64,000 nucleotides of DNA from Leucobacter aridicollis. Its GTDB lineage: Bacteria > Actinomycetota > Actinomycetes > Actinomycetales > Microbacteriaceae. The position numbers were made by a program, and so were the translations under genes. The notes beneath the pieces are model-generated. The model saw nothing but the letters and a program-made list of their open reading frames with translations. It was not told the origin of the DNA and made no database searches. The stretch spans positions 3,472,001-3,536,000 of the forward strand of contig NZ_CP075339.1 of NCBI RefSeq assembly GCF_024399335.1, in the 5' to 3' direction. The stretch's first letter is position 1. Every line of letters starts with the position of its first letter. Shown here piece by piece: positions 7,681 to 32,069 of this stretch.

Positions 7681-8355
7681 CTACGACGTGGACTTCAAGA
7701 CTTCCGCCCGGGCCGCTGGGTCGCCGAGTACACGAAAGTGCCCGCCGGTTGGCAACTTGACGTTCTTCGCACCGGCGAGAAAGCTTCCCTCTGGGATGTG
7801 CGGGTCGAAGCTCGGGAAGATCGACACGATCTTGGCGTTCGCCTCAACGGCGCGGGCCAGCGAGACCATCGTCTCGCTCGTGGGGGCGAGCGCACGAAGC
7901 GATCGATTCAACAAGTACGTCGCGTAGCGAGAGCCGCCGAATGGCGTCGAGATGGTGATGACGATGCGCACCCGCGCCGCTGCGTCGCCAAAGGCGAGCA
8001 GGTGTTTCGCGATGAGGCCGCCCTTGCTATGCGCAACAAGTGCGACGTTGGTCAGGTTCTCCCGTTGGAGATATGAACCGAGCATGTTCGCCCCTTCGAT
8101 GACCGGAACCCGATTTCGGCCGAGGCCGGGAACGATGTGGACTGGATGACCGTTCGCATGAAGCTCGCGGACGAGCGGAAGCATGAACTTCCAAGACTCG
8201 TAGACCCCGGGCAAGATGACCACAGGAGCTTGTTCACCGTCGAGAAATTCTTCGGGCTTGGGCCCGGGGAGTAAGGAACGAACCTGCCAAGCAGCTGCGT
8301 ACCCATAGTCGAGCGCCCACCAGTACGCCTTACGCAACCGGCCAACGCCTGTCAT
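7681..8355 (-). CDS. Small alpha/beta-hydrolase, lipase-like
   Basis: The 224-residue product has a lipase-type nucleophile elbow (VALVAHSKGGLIAK) and an oxyanion-side strand (PVVILPGVYESWKFM), with the candidate catalytic His in GGHFRVL near the C-terminus. It resembles triacylglycerol-lipase/PGAP1-like hydrolases. The frame is open upstream to 8472, but that part runs into the rRNA terminator, so ATG 8355 with gggg just upstream is preferred. There is no convincing signal peptide, suggesting a cytoplasmic esterase/lipase. The substrate is unknown. It may be co-transcribed with mug. Confidence 0.75.
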   Translation of the reverse strand: MTGVGRLRKAYWWALDYGYAAAWQVRSLLPGPKPEEFLDGEQAPVVILPGVYESWKFMLPLVRELHANGHPVHIVPGLGRNRVPVIEGANMLGSYLQRENLTNVALVAHSKGGLIAKHLLAFGDAAARVRIVITISTPFGGSRYATYLLNRSLRALAPTSETMVSLARAVEANAKIVSIFPSFDPHIPEGSFLAGAKNVKLPTGGHFRVLGDPAARAEVLKSTS

Positions 8356-8454
8356 GCAGCCCCCAAAACCCTCGGGCGGCGCACCCATTCCGTGCCCCAC
8401 ACTGGCTATCGTAGCTTCACTGCGGTGCGGGTGGACAAAGGTCCCTGAAATGAC

Positions 8455-8488
8455 GAAAGCCCCGGAGCGCAATTGCTCCGGGGCTTTC
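8455..8488 (-). terminator. rRNA operon intrinsic terminator
   Basis: Perfect 14-bp inverted repeat (gaaagccccggagc / gctccggggctttc) with a six-base loop. It lies directly downstream of 5S on the minus strand and ends in a short T/A-rich edge. Confidence 0.9.
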
Positions 8489-8499
8489 CCAACAAAATG

Positions 8500-8617
8500 T
8501 TCGGCGGTGTCCTACTCTCCCACGAGGTCCCCCTCGCAGTACCATCGGCGCTGTCAGCCTTAGCTTCCGGGTTCGGAATGTGACCGGGCGTTTCCCTGAC
8601 GCTATAACCACCGAAAC
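8500..8617 (-). rRNA. rrf: 5S ribosomal RNA
   Basis: On the minus strand the segment begins near GTTTCGGTGGTTATAGCG and ends near AGGACACCGCCG, with the usual conserved 5S core (ATTCCGAACCCGGAAG). Its length of about 117 nt is normal. Ends are estimated by eye to within a few bases. It lies about 130 bases after 23S. Confidence 0.95.
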
Positions 8618-8749
8618 TCTATTGACATGAAACCAACCCCGACCAGGCACGTAACGTGCTGGGGTTGTGGCCATACGTCAAGAACCACAAAGTAGACGCG
8701 AACATCGTTACAACACTTTACTCATGCCCCAAAACACTATTTGGGATGA

Positions 8750-13826
<5,077 letters not shown>

Positions 13827-14402
13827 ATTACATGCCCACACACACAGCGGAATAAGCCATGCAAGCGAGCGAGTTTAACCTGACAACAGAAACTCATCAA
13901 TACTGACGAAATTTCTTTGTTATCCAAAAAAGGAATCTCCAACACCAAACCAGAAAGCTTGATGCCGGGGATAATAAATTGGCATTTGACAATTTAAGTG
14001 CACACTATTGAGTTCTCAAGATCCAGACACTCACCGTACTCACCCTGAGGCTTTCCGAAGAGCAACTTTTCTATCTTAGACCACCCAGACGCTTTCCCGC
14101 AAATCCGTGCCGGCAGCATTCCTGCTACCACCCGAACCCGCCCGGACACATTCCGAAGAACAGTCACATCGAGGTGAAGATGAATCCCATTTTCCCTACC
14201 CGCTTTACAAACCAAACTGCGGTTCAAGTGGGGGTGTTGTGTGAGAGATCCTTGCAGCCAGTCGCGATTTCCGCGCCGGCCAACAGATGAATACATTACG
14301 CGGGAAACACGCAACACACAAATCGGCGTTCGTTCGACTCTCAAGAACCCAATGAACACAACGAAGTGCCCTCATTGTCGGGCGTGGCGGATCTCTCCTT
14401 GG
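13827..14402 (-). promoter_or_regulatory. rRNA operon leader and promoter region
   Basis: No coding gene is visible here. On the minus strand a good promoter is present: TTGCGG (14097-14102) and TAAGAT (14073-14078), spacing 18. Downstream lies TTGAGAACTCAATAG (about 14005-14019), resembling the element in the 16S-23S spacer and probably part of rRNA antitermination/processing signals. The leader just upstream of 16S is AT-rich. A further related CTTGAGAGT element occurs near 14335, so an upstream second promoter is possible but unproven. Confidence 0.75.
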
Positions 14403-15347
14403 TCACCGCTTCGGCCTGGGTGTATCTGGCCGGGTCGTCCAGCGAACATACATGGCGCCAACCGCTATAGCTCCGACGAATCCAGCGGCCCACCACGGGA
14501 ACCCAGGAAGGCCCGACGGGGTACCCGCCGCCGCAATGTCTTTCACTGGTGTGGGAGTAATGCGCTCGCCCGTCACGAGAATGCGGTGACTGTTCACCCC
14601 GAGTGGGGTGCAGGTAATAAGCGTGACAAGGTCGCGGCCGGCGACTTGGTGGAGCGTCTCGGTCTGATCGGGCTCCACAACGAGTATCTCCGTGACCCTG
14701 TACGTCAGCACCTCACCGAACGTCTCTAGCGTGAAGGTGTCACCGTTCTTCACCCGGTCAAGGTCGGTGAACATCCGTGAGCTCGCGAGCCCCCGGTGAC
14801 CTGTGATGACTGAACGGGTGCTCCGCCCCCCGACAGGAAGCGACGTGCCCTCAAGGTGCCCTAAGCCACGCAGCAATGTGTCATCATCAGTGCCGTGGGC
14901 GATCGGCAGATCTACGTTGATCGTCGGTATTCGCAATCGTGACATCACGCCACTCGGAGTTTTGAGCTGCGCACGGTAGTCCTGCGGCAGCCCACTCATT
15001 TCGCCGTTGCCCACCGCCACATTCACACCAGCGGCAAGCAGTGCGCCCGCTGACAGCGCCTCGTTGTATGCCCGAGCAGCGGTGAGCTGAGTCGCGACAT
15101 CGGGTTTGACCTCGTCTATCTCCGCGTCATATAGGCCGACCAGCGAGGACTGGTTCACCTGCGAGAACCAGGACGCTGTGGTTGGGTACAGCAGCACACT
15201 CACCCCGAGAAGCCAGCAGGTCAGCGTTAACCAAGCGCTCACGCTGACACGTCGTCGTGCCAGCCTCGAGCCGCGCGTACGGTCGCGGCGCAGCGCTTCG
15301 GGCCCCCGTGCAGTTTCATCGTCAGAGTGATCGGCTGGCTGGGTCAC
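14403..15347 (-). CDS. srtC: Class C (pilus) sortase
   Basis: The 314-residue transpeptidase has an N-terminal membrane helix (about 34-54), a sortase barrel with catalytic His184 (VITGHRG), Cys246 (TLITCTPLG) and Arg255 (NSHRILVTG), and a C-terminal membrane helix (about 283-300) with a basic tail. Two helices around the barrel are typical of class C pilin polymerases. No clear DPF/DPW lid motif is seen before the barrel. The start chosen is GTG 15347, preceded by ggaagggaag; longer readings run into the hairpin after the pilin gene. It lies last in the pilus locus and should cross-link the LPLTG pilins encoded upstream. Confidence 0.92.
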   Translation of the reverse strand: MTQPADHSDDETARGPEALRRDRTRGSRLARRRVSVSAWLTLTCWLLGVSVLLYPTTASWFSQVNQSSLVGLYDAEIDEVKPDVATQLTAARAYNEALSAGALLAAGVNVAVGNGEMSGLPQDYRAQLKTPSGVMSRLRIPTINVDLPIAHGTDDDTLLRGLGHLEGTSLPVGGRSTRSVITGHRGLASSRMFTDLDRVKNGDTFTLETFGEVLTYRVTEILVVEPDQTETLHQVAGRDLVTLITCTPLGVNSHRILVTGERITPTPVKDIAAAGTPSGLPGFPWWAAGFVGAIAVGAMYVRWTTRPDTPRPKR

Positions 15348-15432
15348 GCAGCTTCCCTTCCATGGGGTAAGACAGGGTATCGCCGGCTCGGCGCGAGGGG
15401 TGGGGGCGCACCGAACCGGCGAGTCTAGGGGC

Positions 15433-15459
15433 GGATGGGCGACACTCGGCCGCCCACCC
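15433..15459 (-). terminator. Hairpin between pilin and sortase genes
   Basis: Nine-base-pair stem with one wobble (gggtgggcg / cgcccatcc on the minus strand) and a nine-base loop. No T-tract follows. It could be a partial terminator or mRNA-stability hairpin that keeps sortase expression below pilin expression. Confidence 0.4.
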
Positions 15460-15477
15460 GGGAGGCTACGCCTGGCT

Positions 15478-17010
15478 CTACTGGCGGCGGCGTGCGACGA
15501 GCACGGATCCTGCCGCAACCGAGACGAGCGCGAGGCCACCGATGACCATCAGGATCTGGCCTGCGCCACCGGTGAGGGGCAGCTCAGGGACTTCCTGCTG
15601 CTTGTTGGCAATCTCCTTCGAGACCACAGTAACCTCGCCGGCCTTCACAATGACCTCGGACTTGGCGGCGTCACCCGTAGGCAGAACGAACCCATTCGGG
15701 GCCTTCGTCTCAACGAGCACGTAGCAACGCTCCTGAAGACCGTTGGTCATGGTGCCGCCGTTGAGCTCATCGTCGCCGATCCAGAGACCGGGGATGGAGA
15801 TCTCGCCGTTGGCTGCCGACGTAACGGTGTAAGCGCTTCCGTCTGCCTTGGTCACCGGAACGAGGTCAGCGTCTGCGAGGCAGTCAGCTGCCTTGTTGCT
15901 CATGAGTACGGTGAACTCGGCCCCCTGCAGGCCCTTGCCGCTCTTGTCGGCGTCGACTTTCTTGAGGAGCGCGCCGCCCCAGCGCGTCCACACCTCGTTG
16001 GTCGGGGTGCCCGGGTTTCCGTCGCCATCCACGTCGAGGTCGTTAACGTTAACGCCCGCCTGGTTGGCGATCTCGCCGTTTCCCAGTGACTCTACGGTTG
16101 CAACGAAGTCAACCTTGACGACTTCACCGGCCTTCAGCGTTGCCTTCGCCCCGGTGAGGGTTACGGTCAGCGTGTGCTGAACGGGCGTGCCGCCGGTCGT
16201 CCACGCAGCGGTGTAGTCGGTTCCTTCAACCAGGGGCCGACCGTCGATCGATACGACCGGCGCCACGCTGCCCGACAGGCGGGGATCAAGCGTGTCGGTG
16301 ATGATGAACTTCGTGTAGACGTCGCCGTCGACGGCCGGTGCCTTCTGAGAGATCGAGTAGTTCACGTCTGCGCCGAGTACAAATCCATTGTTCGGCTGGT
16401 TCTGGATCGTCTTCGTGGGCAGATCACCAACGTCGTTCTTCGGGTACAGGTTCACGTCGTAAACCCAGGTGCCATCGCCCTCGCCCGTGTTGATGCCAGG
16501 GGTCGGCAGGGTCACGATGAACGGCTCAGAAAGCTTGGTGACGGTTGCCGGAGCAGACTTCTCGCGAACGAGGTATGCGCCGAGCGGCAGGTCGCCGCTC
16601 TTCGCGATGCCGCCAACCGTTGCGGGCAGCTCAGTGCAGCCGGTGAGCGAGAGCGAGCCAAGCGCAGCGCCGGATCGCGCCGCGACGAGGTCCGCGCTCG
16701 ATACGGCCTTCAACGTGTCCCAGCCAGCGTTGGTGCCGCTGAGCAGGTCAACACCGTTGATCGAGCAGTACTCGAACACGACGCCGTCGATCGGCTTCGA
16801 CGTCGGGTTCGTTCCGGTACCGCCAGGGTTCTGGGCCCCGCCACCGGGGTTCTCAAACTTGTGGACAGTCAGCGACCCGAGGCGCTCGGCGTCAATGTTG
16901 TCCGCCTGAGCGGCGGAGCCACCGACGAGAATCCCGAGGACCCCGACGGCGAGCGCCGCGGAGGCCGCAATGCCGCGGCGCAACGCGCGCGGGGCAGTGT
17001 TCTGAGACAT
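15478..17010 (-). CDS. spaA: Shaft (backbone) pilin, SpaA-type, LPLTG
   Basis: The 510-residue sortase substrate has a signal peptide cleaved near residue 36 (SAAQA). The pilin motif WVYDVNLYPKN (182-192) supplies the linking lysine K191. A D2-type isopeptide domain spans about 195-315. A Ca-loop-like segment (DLDVDGDGNPG) follows, then a C-terminal Cna-B domain with E-box (YVLVETKAPNG, 430-440). The sorting signal is LPLTG (477-481), then hydrophobic helix and RRR tail. ATG 17010 has a strong ribosome binding site (agaaagga). The pilin motif plus sorting signal identify it as the polymerising subunit, while the upstream gene is the tip adhesin. Its residues 320-346 match a segment of the sigma-factor fusion at 21118-22851 at 23 of 27 positions. 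Confidence 0.95.
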   Translation of the reverse strand: MSQNTAPRALRRGIAASAALAVGVLGILVGGSAAQADNIDAERLGSLTVHKFENPGGGAQNPGGTGTNPTSKPIDGVVFEYCSINGVDLLSGTNAGWDTLKAVSSADLVAARSGAALGSLSLTGCTELPATVGGIAKSGDLPLGAYLVREKSAPATVTKLSEPFIVTLPTPGINTGEGDGTWVYDVNLYPKNDVGDLPTKTIQNQPNNGFVLGADVNYSISQKAPAVDGDVYTKFIITDTLDPRLSGSVAPVVSIDGRPLVEGTDYTAAWTTGGTPVQHTLTVTLTGAKATLKAGEVVKVDFVATVESLGNGEIANQAGVNVNDLDVDGDGNPGTPTNEVWTRWGGALLKKVDADKSGKGLQGAEFTVLMSNKAADCLADADLVPVTKADGSAYTVTSAANGEISIPGLWIGDDELNGGTMTNGLQERCYVLVETKAPNGFVLPTGDAAKSEVIVKAGEVTVVSKEIANKQQEVPELPLTGGAGQILMVIGGLALVSVAAGSVLVARRRQ

Positions 17011-17087: not shown

Positions 17088-20000
17088 TTAGATAAGTCGA
17101 CGTGCTCTGACCGAGCGCACTGCAAATACGCACATCAGTACGAGGAATGCTCCGCCGCCAAGCATGAAAAGGAAGGTCCCTACACCGCCGGTGAGCGGGA
17201 GTTCAGGTACCTCGACCTGGTGATTCACGATGCCCTCCAGATCCACCGCGGTATCCCCCACGACGGTGACTTCAATTGGCGTATCGAGCTTCACGAACCC
17301 AGCCGGAGCCTGCGTCTCCACGAGGTGGTAGGTGCCTGGCGGTACATTCGTGAGCCTGAACTTTCCGGCGAGCGGGTCAGTGTCGTGACCGGCACATTCC
17401 TCAGCAGAGTCGGCGACACAGTCGCTCAGTGACATCACGGATCCGCCGGGAACTGGCTTCCCTGCTGAGTCGACCGGCACAAGATCCCAGTTGGAGCCCG
17501 CGAGACGCGTTCCAGCTGTATCCACCTTCTCCCAGGACAGATCTACTCCGGGTTTGAAGTTCGCAATCGTGCCGAGCTCGTACGTCCAACTGTCTCGGTC
17601 CAGATTGCCCTCACCAAGCGTGAACCTGATGGGCTGGCTGGCGAGCACGAAGCCCGAGGGGGCTTTGGTCTCAACAAGCTCGTACGTGCCCCACGGAATA
17701 GCGCTGAGAGTGAACTTGCCAGCGGCCGGATCGCGATCTTCACCACAAGTTCCTCCAGTGCAGTCAACGATCGTGCGCGGCCACTCACCAGGGGGCATTA
17801 TGCCCCCCTGCGGAACAACAGGCGTAAGGGTCCACTCCGAACCGGCGAGGAGCGTCGTGGCATTCGCGCCATCTACCTTTTTCCATGCGAGGTCGGGCGT
17901 GAGCTGCAGTCCAACCCGCTGTGCCTCACTCGGAAGCATGGGAACGCCGTTCGAAGTACGCTTCGCGGCAATGGCGACGTTGTTCCATGCGGTGCCAGTC
18001 AGGTCGCCGCCAGAAGCAACGGCTGGGAAGGTGCCCGTGTAGGTGTCGCCGGGCGACCAGACCATGGCGTCAAAGTCGAGGCGGATCGCGGTGACGGATG
18101 CCCAGTCTCCCGCAACGTCAGTTGCCCAATCATTCGTGCAGTTCGCAGGCGCACTGGTGAGTGTGCCCGTGCCCTTGCCAGCGAGTTCGCCTCGGCAGGG
18201 TTCGGTGGCTTTCGAGTACTGCACCGTGGCGCCTGCAGGCAGCCCGGTAACGGGGCCAGTCATCCGGACGTTGAACTCTGAACCTCGCGCGTCTGCGCCG
18301 GGCTTCGCGCCGTGGTCACCCACGCGCGGCAGCATGTCGTAGACCACCACGTCACGCATATCAACGTTGCCGGTGTTCCTCACCGGAATGCGGTAGGTAG
18401 CCTCGCCATCGCGGTCTGTCGAACCGATACCGGGGGCGGGGATGAACTCGTTGTCGCGGGTGCCGCGCACCTCCTTTACGGAATTCATTCCTGGCCCTTC
18501 GACCACGGTGTACGGTTTCTTACCGCGACAGCCGGTGTCGGCGTCGGGGCCCTGCACGGCGTTATTGAAGCTCAGGTCGGCCCAGCTCTTCTGGGGGTCA
18601 AGTATCTTCGGGTCGGCATAGCTCCCCGGGCTTTCGCACACCAGGTACCCGGTCGCCGCTTCCTTCGCCTGCACAAGCATGTAGTTCTCGTAGGTATTGA
18701 CTGGGGTGTTGTCGCGCACTCGCGCATCAAAGCCGATCTCGACCTGGTCGTTCAGCGCGAGCCCGCCGCCCTCCGGCACATTCGGGAAGTCGATAACCAC
18801 CTGGGTACGGGTCACTCCGCCAACCACCACGTCCCTCAAGGTGAGACGAGGCTCGCCGAGCTTCGCGAGGACCGCCTCGGCGGCGGCGCCGCTCTTGCCC
18901 GACACGTTGAGGTACACAGGATTACTCGGGTCCTTCGGCGAATACACGAGGTTCGCTGGAAGGATCTCGGTGATGGTGGGGGTAAAGGTATATGGCCTGC
19001 CGGTAGACACCTGCCCGTACCAGTTATCGCGCTGCGTGACGACCTCGACGCGCACGGGGTCTCCGGGTTCGAGCGAAGGCTGGTTCCCCTTCATGCCGTC
19101 GTCCGTCACGACGTCGGGGTTATACATGCGCTTCTCGGCGTAGACGTTCACCGGGTCGCGTGCCACCCGCGTGTACCCGCAGCGTCCCTCCTTATTCGAA
19201 TCGACGACGGAACCATTTCTCGTCATCGAACCGCCGTTCCAGCGCACGGTATTGTCCGCCGTGCAGTTCTCGATGGTCACCCAGAGCGGGTGCTGCGAAG
19301 CGGGTGTGACGCCGGCCTGCGGGGTCTGCCCTACAGTCTCCACTTCCCCACTAGTCATGAAGTGTGGCTGGTAGACACCATCGCGCACCGCATCCGAATT
19401 ATCGAGCGGAATGTCATTGCTCACGCTACCGAAGAGGAAAAGGCTTCCCTTCGTTCCGCCCTTCACCGGGTTCTCGTCAAGCCAGAACTTGGTGATCCAC
19501 TCTCCGGCGCCCATAGAAATCGGCTGCCCTGCATCCAGACCATCGCAGAACCGCATCGAGCTATCGCCCGCAACCATGCCCTCTGCGATTGTGCAGACTC
19601 CGACCCTGCCTTGGTTCGTCTGCCAGTTCACCTTCAGCTCAGACATGCTGCCGTTTGAGCCGAAGGAGACATCACGATACGCCGGGGTGGCACACGAGAT
19701 ATCGTTTGTATCGGTCGGCGAAGTCCACCCACAGGGCAGCATGTCGACGAGCGACCAGGTTCCTCGTGCGTTGCCCGTTCCCGCGATCGAGTAGTCGTGA
19801 AGGTAGCCGCGAACGTAGTCTCCCCCGGCAAAGGTTCCACCGCGCCATAGCTGCCGCGAGGCCTTGTTCGACTGCGCATAGGAGATGCCCTTCTGCACCG
19901 TGAACTCGCCGTCTGCACCGATCTGCAGGTAGTGCGTCACGCTTGTCTCGTCTGAGAGGGGCGCGCCCGTTGCCCAAGTCTTCGCAGTGACCGCGACCTC

Positions 20001-20954
20001 GTTGGTCTGCGGGAGCTGCTGGTTTGCATCGTTGGTGAAACGATCCTCAGGGAAGTTCACCGTCACGAGAAGCGTCTTCCCGAAGGTGGACGGGTCACAT
20101 TTGGCTTGACCGTTCTCGACCTTGGCGGTCTTCCCGAGATCCCAGGTAACGGTGTGGGTAGCTGCATCGTAGACGCCACCTGCCGAAGCAGACTGAAACA
20201 CCGTGCGTGGCGGAAGTGTATCGGTCACCTTCACGTCTTCCATGGCCCAGAGGCCAAGGGTGTTGCACATGTTCGAGTAGGGTGTGAACCCTCCGCTTGC
20301 GTTCCACTGCTGCGGGTAGCCAACCTTGACCTCGTAGGTGGCATCGCTGCCGACGTAGGGGTCTTCCTGAGGGGCGAACTTCGTCTTCACAACCTGAATA
20401 TCGGCAGCCGAACGCACGACAGCCGGTTCAGAAGTCTCCTCAACTGACTGCGAGTTCGCGGAGAAGGTGGCCGTCGGAGTCATCGCCGTGCCGTCTGGAG
20501 TGACCCAGTTCTCCGTCTGCAGCGTAAACGTCACCGTGCCGGTGTTGGCGCCTGCCATCGTGGCGGGGAAGTGCCACACGATCTTGCGGTCAGCGCCCGT
20601 ACCGACGACCCCAACTGGAAAGGTCTGGGCTGGGGTACCGAACCGAACGGGCGTAAAGCTCGTCACGGCGAACTGCATGTTGCCTGGCTGACCGAGCGGC
20701 ACCGGCACCTCAAGTGAGGCACCGGAGCAGCCGTTCGAGACACCGCCGCACTGCCACTGCACCTCGAAAGTCACAGTCTCGCCAGCTGTCACCTCCACGT
20801 CAGTGGGTGCCGGATGGATATCCACGGTCAGGTCGTTGCCTGCGGCGAGCGCCGGCCCCCCAACGCCCGTGAGCACCACGAGTGCGCTCAGCACCGCGCC
20901 AATAATGCCGGCAGTCCACTTCGACCGTCGTCCCTTTCGACGTGCAGCAGTCAC
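17088..20954 (-). CDS. Large pilus tip adhesin with LPLTG anchor
   Basis: This 1,288-residue exported protein has a basic N-terminus and signal sequence (cleavage near GGPALAAG, residue 38). A long beta-rich DUF11-like region (about 40-1020) resembles surface adhesins. Two C-terminal SpaA/Cna-B domains carry E-boxes (YELVETKAPSGF; YHLVETQAPAGF). The sorting signal LPLTG (about 1252-1256) is followed by a hydrophobic helix and an RARR tail. No YPK-type pilin motif was noticed, so it probably caps the pilus or sits directly on the wall. The start is GTG 20954, preceded by agggggaagca. It lies 77 bases before the shaft pilin gene and 163 bases after the sigma-fusion gene, on the same strand. Confidence 0.9.
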   Translation of the reverse strand: MTAARRKGRRSKWTAGIIGAVLSALVVLTGVGGPALAAGNDLTVDIHPAPTDVEVTAGETVTFEVQWQCGGVSNGCSGASLEVPVPLGQPGNMQFAVTSFTPVRFGTPAQTFPVGVVGTGADRKIVWHFPATMAGANTGTVTFTLQTENWVTPDGTAMTPTATFSANSQSVEETSEPAVVRSAADIQVVKTKFAPQEDPYVGSDATYEVKVGYPQQWNASGGFTPYSNMCNTLGLWAMEDVKVTDTLPPRTVFQSASAGGVYDAATHTVTWDLGKTAKVENGQAKCDPSTFGKTLLVTVNFPEDRFTNDANQQLPQTNEVAVTAKTWATGAPLSDETSVTHYLQIGADGEFTVQKGISYAQSNKASRQLWRGGTFAGGDYVRGYLHDYSIAGTGNARGTWSLVDMLPCGWTSPTDTNDISCATPAYRDVSFGSNGSMSELKVNWQTNQGRVGVCTIAEGMVAGDSSMRFCDGLDAGQPISMGAGEWITKFWLDENPVKGGTKGSLFLFGSVSNDIPLDNSDAVRDGVYQPHFMTSGEVETVGQTPQAGVTPASQHPLWVTIENCTADNTVRWNGGSMTRNGSVVDSNKEGRCGYTRVARDPVNVYAEKRMYNPDVVTDDGMKGNQPSLEPGDPVRVEVVTQRDNWYGQVSTGRPYTFTPTITEILPANLVYSPKDPSNPVYLNVSGKSGAAAEAVLAKLGEPRLTLRDVVVGGVTRTQVVIDFPNVPEGGGLALNDQVEIGFDARVRDNTPVNTYENYMLVQAKEAATGYLVCESPGSYADPKILDPQKSWADLSFNNAVQGPDADTGCRGKKPYTVVEGPGMNSVKEVRGTRDNEFIPAPGIGSTDRDGEATYRIPVRNTGNVDMRDVVVYDMLPRVGDHGAKPGADARGSEFNVRMTGPVTGLPAGATVQYSKATEPCRGELAGKGTGTLTSAPANCTNDWATDVAGDWASVTAIRLDFDAMVWSPGDTYTGTFPAVASGGDLTGTAWNNVAIAAKRTSNGVPMLPSEAQRVGLQLTPDLAWKKVDGANATTLLAGSEWTLTPVVPQGGIMPPGEWPRTIVDCTGGTCGEDRDPAAGKFTLSAIPWGTYELVETKAPSGFVLASQPIRFTLGEGNLDRDSWTYELGTIANFKPGVDLSWEKVDTAGTRLAGSNWDLVPVDSAGKPVPGGSVMSLSDCVADSAEECAGHDTDPLAGKFRLTNVPPGTYHLVETQAPAGFVKLDTPIEVTVVGDTAVDLEGIVNHQVEVPELPLTGGVGTFLFMLGGGAFLVLMCVFAVRSVRARRLI

Positions 20955-21117
20955 TGCTTCCCCCTTGAGTCTTCATCTTTGAAACCAAACATGGCCCCAA
21001 CGTAATTAAAGAGCTCCCGGAGGAAATAATGTGACGCAGTTTGTGAAAAGTTTTTCAGAAGTTTTTGGAGAGCTTTCTGCTTCCATATTTTTGCGGATGT
21101 TCCCGCCGATGGCCTGC
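20955..21117 (-). promoter_or_regulatory. Probable promoter region of pilin genes
   Basis: This 163-base AT-richer gap separates the sigma-fusion gene from the tip adhesin gene. It contains aaaaacttttcacaaactgc followed by gtcac on the minus strand, which could include an ECF-type promoter (AAC / CGTC elements), but the spacing of 13 is short, so this is only a candidate. Confidence 0.3.
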
Positions 21118-22851
21118 CTACCCTCGCCGCGGTCTCGCGGCGACCACGAGGCCACCCGCAACGAGCAGCAGCGCCCCGCCGCCGGCGATCAGCAGCTGGC
21201 CACTTTGGCCGGTTCTCGCCAGCCACGATCCGGGCTCCGCGGTGTTCGGTATGGTGACGCTCTCCACTGCCTCAGCCGTGTCCCAGCCGCGAACGATGAT
21301 CTCGCTGCGGGCCGCCTGACCGATGGGGAGCAGATAGCCAGTAGGGGCCACAATTTCCTCAAGTACATAGCAGCGGGCCGACAGCCCGCTCGAGAACTTG
21401 CCGCCATCGATCTCGTCGTCCCCGACCCACAGAGGCGGAATTTCGAGCACTCCGTTCTTGCCACTCTCAATGACCATCGCCTCACCGTCGTCGCCCACGA
21501 CCGGTGTCAGTTGCTGCGCAGTTCGACAGCCCTCGGGCTGCTCGCTCGCCCAGAGCAAAAACTTCGCCCCCGGCAGCCCGATCGCCGCGTCGCGCGCGTC
21601 AACTTTCACCACCGCTGCGGTACCCCACCTCGTCCATACGGTGTTCGTTGGCGTACCGGGCACACCGTCACCATCGAGGTCCAGGTCATTCACGTTGACA
21701 TGCCCCGTGTTCGGGATCTCGGCGGACTCCGTGGGCATCGACTCGAAACCGGCTGGGACCCCCTCGCCGGGGAGCATGTCTTCGCCCTCGGAGGCAGCGT
21801 CGCCGCGAGTTGACCCGACGTAGCCTTCAGCCACTGTGCCACCCGGCCCAGCTGCTGTGGTCTCCGAGCTTCCACCACCCGCTGAACCAGCCACATCGCG
21901 GTCGACGTCGCCAGCTCCGTCGCCTGGCTCCGTCGGACCCTGCAAGGGACTAGTCGGCAGTTCAGAGACGTCAGTCGTGCCCTGCAATGCCGGAATCGCT
22001 ACTCCAGCAGCCACAACCAATGCTCCCGCAGAAGCGCACGCGGCGGCCGTCAGAAGCGCTTTGCGCTTCCACCCGCGCTCCATCGCAATCACACCGGTAC
22101 TTACCATGCCAATGACGCTCGCTTGCTCAGCAAAGCGGCGCCACCGAGCTTTGCACTGCGGGCAGCCTTCGACGTGAGCAGAGGCCCGAGCGGCCTTCCG
22201 GCTCCCCTTACGCCCCCAGCGCATCTCGCTGAAGTCACTCACGCAGGCGGCGCAATCAGCCGCGAGCCCCCTCGGTGGGTGCATCTGTTTCAGCCAAGAG
22301 CGCTTCAGCCCTTCGCGTGCGCGCTTCAACAGAACCGAAGTCGAGTTCGGGGTGAGCTCAAGGTCAGCTGCAACTTCTTGGACTGGCTTTCCGGCGACAT
22401 CGACCGCCAGAATCACATGCTTCCAACGCAGCGGCAAATCGTCGAGCGCCGCTGCCGCAGCGTCTTGCTCTTCGAGGTCGGCAAGGTGGTCGTCACTCGC
22501 TCCGCTCTCAAGCTTTTCGGCGTCGAAATCGTCGAGCGATATCTCTCGGTTATCGGCACGCCAGTGTTTCGAGAGCTGCGATGTAATTGTGCGAAACAGG
22601 TAACTGGTGAACGACTCAGTAGGGCCGCCTCCATCGAGCAATGCGCGGTAGATCGAGTCAAACGCGTCAGATACCGCATCCTCGGCGTACGTCACGTCTT
22701 TGCGCTTCGCCCACCCCACAGCAACCGCGTGGTACCGCTCCCAGAGAGTCGCGAGCGGCCACGCCTCACCGCTACGGATCAGGTCGCACAACTCACTGTC
22801 CGTAATCGACTCGGCCCCGCTCGGCCCTCGCTCGTCAATCACGTGGGTCAT
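21118..22851 (-). CDS. ECF-like sigma factor fused to zinc finger, TM, pilin-like ectodomain, sorting-like tail
   Basis: The 577-residue product (ATG 22851) contains, in order: sigma-70 region 2 (about 30-100; YAEDAVSDAFDSIYRAL); region 4 helix-turn-helix (about 130-190; PVQEVAADLELTPNSTSVLLKRA); an anti-sigma-type zinc finger (C200xxC203, H226xxxC230xxC233); a membrane helix (264-288); a Gly/Thr/Glu-rich linker (290-380); a Ca-loop-like plus Cna-B/SpaA-like ectodomain (385-525, with E-box-like YVLEEIVAPTGY); LARTG (544-548); a second hydrophobic helix (550-571); and RPRRG. The sigma part is predicted inside and the pilin-like domain outside the membrane. It is first in the pilus locus. An upstream in-frame TTG at 22911 is possible but less likely. 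It probably regulates the downstream pilus genes (inference). Confidence 0.88.
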   Translation of the reverse strand: MTHVIDERGPSGAESITDSELCDLIRSGEAWPLATLWERYHAVAVGWAKRKDVTYAEDAVSDAFDSIYRALLDGGGPTESFTSYLFRTITSQLSKHWRADNREISLDDFDAEKLESGASDDHLADLEEQDAAAAALDDLPLRWKHVILAVDVAGKPVQEVAADLELTPNSTSVLLKRAREGLKRSWLKQMHPPRGLAADCAACVSDFSEMRWGRKGSRKAARASAHVEGCPQCKARWRRFAEQASVIGMVSTGVIAMERGWKRKALLTAAACASAGALVVAAGVAIPALQGTTDVSELPTSPLQGPTEPGDGAGDVDRDVAGSAGGGSSETTAAGPGGTVAEGYVGSTRGDAASEGEDMLPGEGVPAGFESMPTESAEIPNTGHVNVNDLDLDGDGVPGTPTNTVWTRWGTAAVVKVDARDAAIGLPGAKFLLWASEQPEGCRTAQQLTPVVGDDGEAMVIESGKNGVLEIPPLWVGDDEIDGGKFSSGLSARCYVLEEIVAPTGYLLPIGQAARSEIIVRGWDTAEAVESVTIPNTAEPGSWLARTGQSGQLLIAGGGALLLVAGGLVVAARPRRG

Positions 22852-28749: not shown

Positions 28750-29370
28750 CTATTGGTTTTTCTTGCGGTCGGCTTCTTCTGCGAGCCTGCGGTGTTCGTC
28801 GAATTTCTCGCCGATCTCTGATTCGGGGACCATGACATCGTCGCCGGGGAGCACCTCGCCCCGGTCACGCGCGGCACTATCCTCACGGTTAAACTCCACA
28901 TACAGCCCTGGCGAGCACGGCGCAATCGCACCGATCCGGTAGGAGCGCTCTACTGCACTCGTGTTAAAGCTCGCACGCAGTACCGGTCCGCCGGAGCCGT
29001 ATACGACAGGCCAGTCAGTGTCTTCGCCAGTCATGAACACTGTCATCCCGAGAGACTCCCAGTACGCTGCCATCTTTTTCGCGTCGGCGCGATGATCGTC
29101 TCCCTCCGGGGCCCAATAAGCGTACTGATACTGGCTCGCGTTGTCGGGATCACCCTCACACGGGGCCGCGTATGCAGTACCGCGTGCCCACCATCCGGTC
29201 ACGTCGAGCTGTTGTGCTGAGTCTTGCACCAACTGAACGACCTTGTCACGGCCCTCTCGTGCAGTCATTACTGGTTCCTCCTCCTGTGTGCCACATCCAG
29301 CCAGCAGGACTGATGCGAGTAGTACCGTCATGATTGCCGCGCCGATACGCGCCCCAGTTCTACCAGCCAT
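28750..29370 (-). CDS. Lipoprotein, second copy of duplicated pair
   Basis: The 206-residue lipoprotein has signal and lipobox LLAGC (lipidated Cys26), so it is anchored on the outer face of the membrane. It is a paralogue of the neighbouring gene at 29456. The first about 65 residues and the last about 50 (SPGLYVEFNRED to the end) are nearly identical between copies, while the middle (about 67-145) is diverged. Its upstream flank carries a leftover of the hydrolase 3' end. The domain family is unknown. Location next to a large unsecreted-looking hydrolase suggests an immunity or partner role (inference). Confidence 0.85.
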   Translation of the reverse strand: MAGRTGARIGAAIMTVLLASVLLAGCGTQEEEPVMTAREGRDKVVQLVQDSAQQLDVTGWWARGTAYAAPCEGDPDNASQYQYAYWAPEGDDHRADAKKMAAYWESLGMTVFMTGEDTDWPVVYGSGGPVLRASFNTSAVERSYRIGAIAPCSPGLYVEFNREDSAARDRGEVLPGDDVMVPESEIGEKFDEHRRLAEEADRKKNQ

Positions 29371-29410
29371 GCGTTCCGAGTCCCATCTGTGCTTCCTGCA
29401 TCTGAGTCGG
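29360..29410 (-). pseudogene. Remnant of hydrolase 3' end (16 codons plus stop)
   Basis: The minus strand reads PTQMQEAQMGLGTHGW-stop, matching the last 16 residues of the DUF1023-like hydrolase at 30066 with one change. It overlaps the start of the second lipoprotein gene in the same way as the intact pair. It is a footprint of tandem duplication of the hydrolase end plus lipoprotein gene. Confidence 0.85.
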
Positions 29411-29455
29411 CCTGGGCGCCACAGGCACCGCCAAGACCGACTCCCCCGACGACAG

Positions 29456-30076
29456 CTATTCGCTCTTCTTGCGGTCAGCTTCTTCTGCGAGCCTGCGGTG
29501 TTCGTCGAACTTCTCGCCGATCTCTGATTCGGGGACCTTCACGTCGTCACCGGGGAGCACCTCGCCCCGGTCACGCACGGCACTATCCTCACGGTTAAAC
29601 TCCACATACAGCCCTGGCGAGCACGGCGCAATCGCGTCGATATGGTACGAACGATCCGCGCCCAGCGTGTCGAAGCTCGCACGCAGCACCGGCCCCCCTC
29701 TGCCGAACACCATCGGAGCGCTGCCGTCTTGCCCAGTGGTGTACACCGTCATCCCCAAGGATTCCCAATACTCAGCCATTCGCTTCGCGTCCGCTTGCGG
29801 GTCGTCTCCTTCGGGAGCCCAATAGTGATAGACATACTGGCTTGCGTTGTCAGGGTCGCCTTCGCACGGGATCGCAGACGCGGTTCCGCGTGCCCACCAT
29901 CCGGTCACGTCGAGCTGTTGTGCTGAGTCTTTCACCAACTGAACGACCTTGTCACGGCCCTCTCGTGCAGTCATTACTGGTTCCTCCTCCTGTGTGCCAC
30001 ATCCAGCCAGCAGGACCGATGCGAGTAGTACCGTGACGATTCCCGCGCCGATACGCGCCCCAGTTCTACCAACCAT
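29456..30076 (-). CDS. Lipoprotein, first copy of duplicated pair
   Basis: The 206-residue lipoprotein has lipobox LLAGC (Cys26). ATG 30076 lies inside the last codons of the upstream hydrolase gene (11-base overlap), so it is translationally coupled to it. It is a paralogue of the 28750 gene: identical-looking ends, variable middle, two conserved Cys (in PCEGDP and PCSPGLY) that could form a disulfide outside the membrane. No known family was recognised. Tight coupling to the hydrolase implies the two act together, plausibly as effector and immunity protein or as enzyme and chaperone. Confidence 0.87.
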   Translation of the reverse strand: MVGRTGARIGAGIVTVLLASVLLAGCGTQEEEPVMTAREGRDKVVQLVKDSAQQLDVTGWWARGTASAIPCEGDPDNASQYVYHYWAPEGDDPQADAKRMAEYWESLGMTVYTTGQDGSAPMVFGRGGPVLRASFDTLGADRSYHIDAIAPCSPGLYVEFNREDSAVRDRGEVLPGDDVKVPESEIGEKFDEHRRLAEEADRKKSE

Positions 30077-32069
30077 GCTGTCCGAGTCCCATCTGTGCCT
30101 CCTGCATTTGAGTCGGCCCCAACGGCACATAGTCGGTAATATCGTCTGTCTCGCCCTTGATTGCTCGCGCGGTGTTCTTGAGGGATTCGGTGCCGGGGCT
30201 GAAGTATCCGCCGCCGCCCTTGATGAGTGGGTCATGGCCGACGACCGGGTCGCCGGCGTCGCCCCCGGTGTCCACACCGAACGCCTGCCCGCCGAACTCT
30301 GGTTTCATAGGGTCAACCTTGTGATCGCGGCTGAAGTCGCGCCCGGCCCACGCCCACTCGTCTCCCGTGTCGGGGTCGATCACCATCCTGTCTCTCGCGT
30401 TCCCGGAATACACTTTGTCGGCGTTGAGCTGCGACGCGCTCGTGACCGTGTCGGGGAGACCTGCGGAGCCGAGCATGATGAAGTTGTTCACCTTTACGCC
30501 CGGCATTGTGAGCGCAACCGCGGCCGTGGTGGTGCCGTACGAGTGCGCGACAATATCCAGTTGCGGCATCGACCCGCCCCGCACCGCCGCCAGCCCCCGA
30601 AGCGCGGCCGCGAGACTGTTGCCGCCCGCGACCGCCCGTTTCGAGTCGAGCACCCCAAGATCAGGGTCGTCCCAGCTCGGGCTCGGTGGTGTCTCGTAAC
30701 CGATCCACGCAACCACAGCGCTCCCCTCAGGGAGTTCCCAGTGGAGGTTTTGGGCCGCGTTTGTCCAACCGGTCATCCTGGTCGTGTCGCTTCCCATGCC
30801 CGGGATCGCGTACGCGACACTCGTGGCGGTATCGAGGTTCCCGATCGAAACAGCCGCAAGTGGTGGCTGGTCCTGAGTCAACGCAATCAGGAACCTGGCA
30901 GCGCCATCGTCAGCCGGCTCGAGCGCGAGGCTAATGTTCTCAAGGGCCGCGAGCTGCGTTTGAAGCACCGACACATCCACGCCGGCAGCCTGAAGCTTCT
31001 CGATCTCCAATTGAACGTCCTCGATCGCTGCAGTCAGCGCGACCTTGTTCGCGTAGTCGCGTGCGCCATACGGGATCCCCTCAAGGTTCCCAAAGAGCAC
31101 GGCAAACCCGTCAAGCAGCAGCTTCTGCTGCTCTGAGAACGGGTCCTCGGAGCCAGCTGGCGGGTTCATTCCCTGCCACCAGGAATTGATCTCCACCGGG
31201 TCCATGAACTCCAAGCGACGCATCAACCCGGGGGAAGCTTGGAAGAGTATCGCAATCTCTTCAGCCGTGAGGGCCGACAGCGCCGCAAGCAGATCGGCGT
31301 CACTCATCGGATGCACTGCAGTCACCGAGAGATCAATCACCGCGTTTGAGAGTATCCCGCCACCGGCGGCTTCGAACGCGGCAGCGACACCATCAATCCA
31401 GTCAACATCCCGCCGGTTCTCGTTCAGGAACTGTTGGAAGCCTGCCAGAAATGTCGTCGACTCGACCCGCGCCCATGAACACGACGCACCAAACGCGGAC
31501 CACGCTCGACGCACCAACGACAGTTGGGACTCGAGGTCAATGTTGCTCGTGCCGCTCTGCGACACAAACGTGCGCAACTTCGCCGGGTCCGCAGAAGACT
31601 TCCCGGGCCCCGCCCCAGTAGCCCGCCGGGTTCGTTGCTGCGCGGTGAAGGAAGCCGAAATGGTTGGCGGTTGGATCGGGATCTCGGACGGGCGCGGATC
31701 GAAGAACGAATCTACGCCGGCGGTGAAGCTGTCGCCGAACGCGTCGGTCTGACGTCGCTGTTCCCGTTCTGCCTCACGCATCCGCCAATCAGCGACCTCC
31801 TTGAGCCGCTCGCGTTCTTCGCGCGCCTTTACCACCGTCTGCTTGACGGCCTCGGCAAGCTCATAGAGCACGCGGGCAAGTCTCACGCGGTCACGCTTCT
31901 CTGTTGCGACTGCGAGCCGAAACAGCGTTCCGTACGCACCCACGAAGTCCTCCATCGCGCGCTCGGCGGCTCCGTTACGAAAGAGGCTCTGGTCACGTAA
32001 GGCATCGTCTGCGGTTTCGAGCGTACGAATCAGCTCGTTGGCAGTAGCGGTGTCGAATTGGATCGACAT
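30066..32069 (-). CDS. Large DUF1023-like alpha/beta hydrolase, possible secreted effector
   Basis: The 667-residue protein has no signal peptide. The N-terminal about 105 residues form charged helices (coiled-coil-like ERERLKEVADWRMREAEREQRR), then a linker rich in Pro/Ser/Thr, a helical middle (WWQGMNP, GNLEGIPYGARDYAN) and a C-terminal hydrolase domain with nucleophile elbow IVAHSYGTT (Ser510) and a candidate catalytic His near 611 (VGHDPLIKGGGG). The GNLxGIPxxARDxAN block resembles DUF1023 proteins of actinobacteria. ATG 32069 is chosen because a helical N-terminal domain starts there. The N-terminus recalls helical targeting domains of type VII effectors, but no WXG partner is encoded nearby. 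It heads a cassette with two lipoprotein genes. Confidence 0.82.
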   Translation of the reverse strand: MSIQFDTATANELIRTLETADDALRDQSLFRNGAAERAMEDFVGAYGTLFRLAVATEKRDRVRLARVLYELAEAVKQTVVKAREERERLKEVADWRMREAEREQRRQTDAFGDSFTAGVDSFFDPRPSEIPIQPPTISASFTAQQRTRRATGAGPGKSSADPAKLRTFVSQSGTSNIDLESQLSLVRRAWSAFGASCSWARVESTTFLAGFQQFLNENRRDVDWIDGVAAAFEAAGGGILSNAVIDLSVTAVHPMSDADLLAALSALTAEEIAILFQASPGLMRRLEFMDPVEINSWWQGMNPPAGSEDPFSEQQKLLLDGFAVLFGNLEGIPYGARDYANKVALTAAIEDVQLEIEKLQAAGVDVSVLQTQLAALENISLALEPADDGAARFLIALTQDQPPLAAVSIGNLDTATSVAYAIPGMGSDTTRMTGWTNAAQNLHWELPEGSAVVAWIGYETPPSPSWDDPDLGVLDSKRAVAGGNSLAAALRGLAAVRGGSMPQLDIVAHSYGTTTAAVALTMPGVKVNNFIMLGSAGLPDTVTSASQLNADKVYSGNARDRMVIDPDTGDEWAWAGRDFSRDHKVDPMKPEFGGQAFGVDTGGDAGDPVVGHDPLIKGGGGYFSPGTESLKNTARAIKGETDDITDYVPLGPTQMQEAQMGLGQHGW

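Follow-up and report, generated by a model that had tools for sequence, protein, structure and literature searches.

How might a Gram-positive bacterium tell its transcription machinery about a pilus on its surface? Little is known about how these organisms sense covalent pilus assembly by sortases, and a locus in Leucobacter aridicollis puts the question in concrete form, with a single gene beside a pilus operon that encodes both a predicted sigma factor and a piece of pilin. In what follows, I consider what this protein is, how old the fusion may be, which genes it is likely to control and what its outer part might sense, all within a 64,000-nucleotide stretch of the chromosome (the window) and in comparison with related genomes.

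A sigma factor and a pilin end in one chain

On the minus strand a single open reading frame of 577 aa runs from an ATG at 22851 to a stop at 21118, and the plus-strand reading of this interval is interrupted by stops; the unbroken frame that an earlier note reported here is real and belongs to the minus strand. Its parts are as follows.

21118..22851, minus strand: entire gene for the 577-aa transmembrane ECF sigma factor, whose ectodomain derives from a pilin (open reading frame and conservation)
22282..22809, minus strand: ECF sigma regions 2 and 4, residues 15-190 (TIGR02937, conservation and dN/dS)
22132..22260, minus strand: Cys/His cluster of anti-sigma type, residues 198-240 (conservation; zf-HC2 in paralogues)
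21982..22062, minus strand: predicted transmembrane helix 1, residues 264-290 (hydropathy)
21730..21981, minus strand: linker rich in Gly, Ser and Pro, residues 291-374 (column conservation)
21619..21729, minus strand: final two strands of pilin D2, carrying the orphan isopeptide Asn381 and an acidic DLDLDGDG loop, residues 375-411
21241..21618, minus strand: pilin domain D3, CnaB/SpaA fold, residues 412-537, with K416/E499/N536 and C442/C494
21208..21222, minus strand: sorting-like motif LARTG (alignment of 14 fusions)
21121..21201, minus strand: second hydrophobic helix (helix 2), followed by the basic RPRRG tail, residues 551-577 (hydropathy)

The NCBIfam model TIGR02937 (sigma70-ECF) matches residues 34-184 above its cut-off (E=1e-15, 57.8 bits vs 42.9), which bears out the assignment of sigma-70 regions 2 and 4 in that note and identifies them as ECF type, and the predicted structure gives fold matches to sigma chains. 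At the other end, residues 375-571 match the SpaH/EbpB major pilin model NF033902 with E=3.1e-19, a score below that model's full-length cut-off, and only over model positions 340-537 of 540, and the protein lacks D1 and most of D2 of a pilin; the external Cna-B/SpaA-like domain proposed earlier is thereby supported. All of the Pfam matches are under the gathering score (Sigma70_r4_2 1.2e-4, Sigma70_r2 5.6e-4, SpaA 0.015) and zf-HC2 gives none in the 577-aa protein, so the domain case rests on NCBIfam, homologues and fold. The proposed zinc finger of anti-sigma type is a candidate: the cluster C200xxC203 / H226xxxC230xxC233, with five candidate ligands, is invariant in the alignment of 14 fusions, but the zf-HC2 match is found in three Leucobacter paralogues aligning through the Cys/His stretch (one over the cut-off, two just under) and not in the protein itself. 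Hydropathy marks two hydrophobic stretches, at about 264-290 and 551-573, the first of them a predicted transmembrane helix following the cluster, and with the NCBIfam models, the conserved cluster and the homologues the predicted domain order and topology hold.

Conservation and a probable single ancient origin

A protein search returned 24 matches, and an alignment-based search the same 24 sequences: 14 full-length fusions (the window's own included, with 48-82% identity for the 13 others), a fragment of 366 aa, four pilins, three distant sigma fusions and two sister sigma factors that lack the pilin domain. Among the matches listed, the full fusion occurs in 7 and the sister gene in 9 more of 54 Leucobacter genomes, and a set of 100 mixed genomes holds at least seven full-length fusions, the seven listed being all in the genus Leucobacter. 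In 398 genomes drawn from the family, the fusion was found only in G000, G142 and G211 (E limit 1e-45), a scan of genome contigs gave eight loci, all Leucobacter (six fusions and two sister genes), and none of the 16 records from the plasmid collection covered 80% of the query. For these counts, L108 and L117 are one contig of length 76343, counted once, and the other L106-L113 loci duplicate G genomes, judged by the length of their contigs. With 14 distinct fusions and nine genomic loci read, a frameshift, chimera or assembly error was rejected as an explanation; independent genomes keep intact the two halves whose splitting the earlier note had named as evidence against itself.

Conservation across the 14 fusions, together with a whole-gene dN/dS of 0.11 and 0.09 in two genome pairs (window/G019 and G012/G011), excludes a chance frame. 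The dN/dS values are rough because dS is 0.56-1.51 and partly near saturation, and by region, in the same order of pairs, they are 0.04/0.02 for sigma, 0.01/0.03 for the cluster region, 0.21/0.29 for helix plus linker, 0.15/0.01 for the D2 strands, 0.23/0.13 for D3 and 0.07/0.27 for the end. Invariant columns in the alignment number 65/176 in sigma, 26/72 in the cluster region, 2/28 in helix 1, 0/84 in the linker, 17/37 in the D2 strands, 31/126 in D3 and 0/29 in helix 2 and the tail.

One branch of the sigma tree separates the fusions from all other sequences (support 1.000), and in the D3 tree all 14 fusions fall into a single clade apart from 18 pilins (0.978), making one ancient fusion the simplest history. 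Recent gene conversion from the neighbouring pilin was considered and rejected, since the D3s form that one clade and the own pilin is no closer than others: the window ectodomain has 49% identity to its own pilin vs 48-50% to others, and across fusions the mean D3 identity is 0.456 to the own pilin and 0.462 to other pilins. Seven sister proteins (P0017, P0018, L022, L024, L026, L027 and L028) end in a conserved LYFGDW..W motif and have no pilin domain. The sister sigma genes of L026 and L028 adjoin large genes whose encoded proteins terminate in an LVNTG signal.

The pilus operon and a promoter-like element

Downstream of the fusion gene, on the same strand, lie a promoter-like element and three pilus genes.

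21010..21037, minus strand: promoter-like core GCGTCACAT-N15-CTCT, with TTTTC and an A-tract conserved just upstream, to ~21060
17088..20954, minus strand: adhesin of 1288 aa with SpaA and DUF11 matches (Pfam/NCBIfam), ending in LPLTG
15478..17010, minus strand: SpaH/EbpB-type major pilin of 510 aa (start ATG selected by the analyst), with a YPKN motif and LPLTG
14403..15539, minus strand: class C (pilus) sortase (NF033745, E=3.1e-71)

At 7 of 7 Leucobacter loci, the window and six others, the sigma fusion gene stands ahead of those for adhesin, pilin and class C sortase, in that order and on the same strand; in G211 and G142 the sigma gene is followed by pilin and sortase, with the G211 adhesin gene elsewhere, and in G017 and G020 a sister sigma gene without the pilin domain is divergent from the same adhesin, pilin and sortase genes. 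Beside the operon, positions 8001-14000 of the window have a G+C of 0.54-0.56 compared with 0.62-0.70 in the remaining window. Elsewhere in the window, at 28750-30277 on the minus strand, two similar adjacent genes for small lipoprotein-like products are probably a tandem duplication.

Comparison of the intergenic regions revealed an A-tract, TTTTC and AAC(C/T)GCGTCACAT-N15-CTCT directly 3' of the sigma gene, an element found there at all nine fusion loci examined and overlapping the stop codon of that gene in G011 and G012. At L020 (9580) and L021 (9655) the element and the 3' end of the sigma gene share sequence, and this DNA therefore also encodes the last residues of the protein. The element may be read in two ways, either with CGTC as an ECF-type -10 and the A-tract as the -35, or with CGTCAC as the -35 and CTCT as the -10. 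The core GCGTCACAT-N15-CTCT has 12 matches in the 54 Leucobacter genomes (one for a reversed control), 11 of them no more than 10 kb from a member of the sigma clade, with seven of the 12 being the fusion loci from which the pattern was derived; a longer version has a single match in the own genome and none in the control. Outside the derivation set, the element is present at the sigma loci of G142 (one match, 0.05 expected) and G211. Each of these genomes carries exactly two copies, one between sigma and pilin and the other unlinked. In G211 the unlinked copy is ~1 Mb away and stands 85 bases ahead of an adhesin match of 60% identity; in G142 it precedes a stretch with likeness to the start of the adhesin and the end of a pilin.

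Such copies at a distance point to regulation in trans, and that this sigma factor reads the element is the natural inference. The presence of the element at all nine fusion loci and of a second copy before a relative's unlinked adhesin gene makes the pilus genes the likely target, and the link to the pilus operon suggested in the earlier note is thus supported by synteny and by the conserved element with its unlinked copy. No [CT]GCGTCACA was found upstream of the sigma gene in seven loci, which argues against autoregulation via that element.

The element also occurs at the sister loci of G031 and G010, preceding in G010 a gene for a protein that ends in LVNTG. In G017 and G020 an exact match lies inside the 3' end of the sortase gene, while in the intergenic copy the spacer is shorter by one base, and the exact element is missing in five of the nine Leucobacter genomes with a sister sigma gene (G021, G029, G049, G028 and G025). 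The G031 sister gene has a stop codon with the promoter-like element present (L024, 8543 on the minus strand and 8723-9481 on the plus strand), no pilus gene was seen in the 18 kb read around it, and the locus is possibly a relic of a lost operon. The match in G005 was rejected as a functional element and ascribed to chance, having no A-tract and, by tblastn, no pilus gene in the surrounding 10 kb. Motif extraction over the 23 Gram_pos_anchor loci of the own genome found a motif in only part of them, and its result carries no weight here.

The pilin-derived ectodomain and its sorting-like signal

The predicted CnaB isopeptide triad of D3 (K416/E499/N536) and the two cysteines C442 and C494 are invariant in all 14 fusions. 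The isopeptide Asn381 of D2 is invariant too, and its partner lysine and catalytic acid are absent, so by analogy this orphan D2 strand, a feature absent from the earlier note, resembles a natural isopeptide tag. The adjoining DLDLDGDG loop could possibly sense Ca2+. The idea that the fusion is itself a basal pilin was judged unlikely, as YPKN is absent from 14/14 fusions and 8/14 lack any lysine between residues 291 and 375 of their own numbering. With a mean pairwise identity of 0.546 in fusions vs 0.728 in pilins, D3 has diverged faster in the fusions; for the D2 strands the values are 0.782 and 0.868, relaxation relative to pilins is about equal in the two parts, and extra constraint on the fusion D2 strands is not supported. 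As to packing of these strands on D3, the fusion model shows no strand there (blocks with pLDDT 32-55) and the pilin model does assign D2 strands at 313-322 and 337-353 (blocks 48-74), a weak result given that both structure models are shallow (mean pLDDT 55.3 for the fusion and 67.6 for the pilin).

Downstream of D3, L544, T547 and G548 are invariant in the 14 fusions (LxxTG), position 2 of the signal being Ala in five, Ser in seven, Val in two and Pro in none, whereas the pilin signals are LPLTG in 13/13 and the adhesin signals have Pro in 9/9 examined. The motif, LARTG in the window, is not an LPXTG signal. Class E sortases, of which the own genome has one above the cut-off, use LAXTG, and SrtE1 also accepts Pro (PMC5148588, in excerpt). 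The Pro-less signal suggests wall anchoring by class E, and anchoring of the ectodomain to the wall is plausible, although loss of Pro is no proof of sortase specificity when SrtE1 takes Pro too.

What might the protein sense?

I would put at roughly 60% the reading that the protein is a one-piece sigma factor spanning the membrane and dedicated to the sortase-assembled pilus of the adjacent operon. Its fused anti-sigma-type domain would keep the sigma domain tethered at the membrane, with the pilin C-terminus (D3 with its isopeptide triad and the last two D2 strands) in the wall zone, probably fixed to the wall by the class E sortase through the LAxTG-like signal. There it would report pilus assembly or the state of the wall, be it free pilin, sortase or pulling force, and the signal would let regulated proteolysis free the sigma domain to transcribe the pilus genes from the element directly 3' of its own gene. 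The wall anchoring, the sensed signal and the proteolytic release, and with them the surface-to-transcription signalling that the earlier note read from the topology, are what I infer from sequence. The single Peptidase_M50 (site-2 type) over the cut-off in the genome and the low dN/dS in sigma, cluster and ectodomain count in favour of this pilus-sigma explanation. Counting against it are the absence of the element at some sister loci, an ectodomain no closer to its own pilin, the faster divergence of D3 and the sister sigma genes of G017 and G020, whose products have no pilin domain and which stand beside the same operon. A more specific and rather improbable version has the orphan D2 strand with Asn381 slot into the D2 of a pilin still nascent or stalled, ahead of that pilin's own last strands and perhaps with a covalent bond. 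This would tie the sigma factor to its own cargo until the sortase pulls on or incorporates the pilin and the sigma domain is released; if true, split-domain complementation with a subunit of the polymer itself would gate transcription of the genes for that polymer.

The protein might instead sense wall tension or the envelope, as an isopeptide-locked spacer held on peptidoglycan by the class E sortase, so that strain between wall and membrane and not the state of the pilus triggers release. The long variable linker would suit such a device, as would the single class E sortase and the likeness of the Pro-less LxxTG in 14/14 fusions to LAXTG (PMC5148588, in excerpt), but the pilin origin and the place at the head of the operon would then be incidental, position 2 is Ser (7/14) or Val (2/14) more often than the studied Ala, and SrtE1's acceptance of Pro weakens the specificity argument; I consider this unlikely, if worth keeping in mind. 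More doubtful still is a sensor of sortase occupancy, or decoy, whose signal the class C sortase would accept poorly and which would read whether that enzyme is busy with pilin: D3 and the signal are pilin-derived, and pilins and adhesins keep Pro (13/13 and 9/9 examined), but its loss in the fusions argues against class C recognition. I find it similarly hard to credit that the pilin part is a passive duplication relic joined to a sigma gene, with any sensing left to helix 1 or the anti-sigma-type domain. The faster divergence of D3 and the existence of sister proteins without a pilin domain would fit, but K416, E499, N536, C442, C494, L544, T547 and G548 are invariant in 14/14 fusions at ~50% identity, dN/dS stays low in D3 (0.23 and 0.13) and the D2 strands (0.15 and 0.01), and the fusion traces to one ancient origin.

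Beyond one locus and comparison with known systems

The arrangement may extend beyond the fusion, for 23 of 112 sigma matches (among the matches listed) have a class C sortase no more than 12 kb away, with ~2 expected. These comprise nine fusion and G017/G020 loci plus 14 others, and the three of the 14 that were scanned have sigma and zf-HC2-type matches, one of them with Big_13 under the cut-off. One-piece membrane sigma factors near pilus sortases in many Leucobacter loci suggest a more general wiring of surface structures to transcription. Other Leucobacter pilus clusters (L091 10399-12223, L097, L098, L099, L101, L102 and others of L096-L104) also hold one-piece sigma/zinc-finger-type/membrane proteins, with ectodomains of other kinds, partly Ig-like. 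A sigma factor with a piece of pilin outside, and an element present once or twice per genome, makes a small and directly testable system for the sensing of pilus assembly.

PilS, a sensor from a quite different pilus, reads the level of pilin. Like the Leucobacter protein, PilS-PilR of type IV pili places a membrane protein in charge of pilin gene transcription (PMC6058289, in excerpt), but it is a Gram-negative two-component system of unrelated proteins. Closer in build are ECF52, ECF53 and ECF48 (SCO4117), in which a sigma factor, a zinc finger, a membrane-spanning helix and an extracellular portion form one chain and for which activation by proteolysis has been proposed (excerpts of PMC8999054 and PMC5826349). 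The earlier note set a fusion of sigma, anti-sigma and extracellular sensor apart from the usual pairing, but sigma, anti-sigma and membrane part in a single protein make up a class already described. The likeness lies in sigma, helix and outer part, with the Cys/His cluster as a candidate zinc finger; the ECF52 ectodomain is, in those excerpts, proline-rich with a carbohydrate-binding domain, whereas the Leucobacter protein has D2 strands, D3 and a sorting-like signal and, unlike ECF52, sits in a pilus operon. IutY (ECF243) of Pseudomonas putida likewise fuses sigma to a membrane-bound anti-sigma and is activated by regulated intramembrane proteolysis, but it serves iron-starvation signalling for a xenosiderophore and no pilin domain is mentioned in the section consulted (PMC8999054, section 3.5.3). 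An excerpt of PMC8103513 mentions no pilin or LPXTG, and the open-licence PMC literature searched, which gives no proof of absence, yielded no paper on a sigma-pilin fusion.

Measured against SpaD, FimA and other SpaH/EbpB-type pilins, the fusion has no D1, no YPKN lysine, little of D2 and a Pro-less signal. Its unusual features are an ectodomain derived from a pilin, a sorting-like signal that lacks Pro and the orphan strand of D2. Isopeptag and SpyTag each consist of an isolated strand carrying a reactive Asn or Asp. Both are engineered split-domain tags (excerpts of PMC5487036 and PMC4748275) and man-made, whereas the D2 strand of Leucobacter is natural and putatively reactive and would, if it does react, be a natural counterpart of these engineered protein tags.
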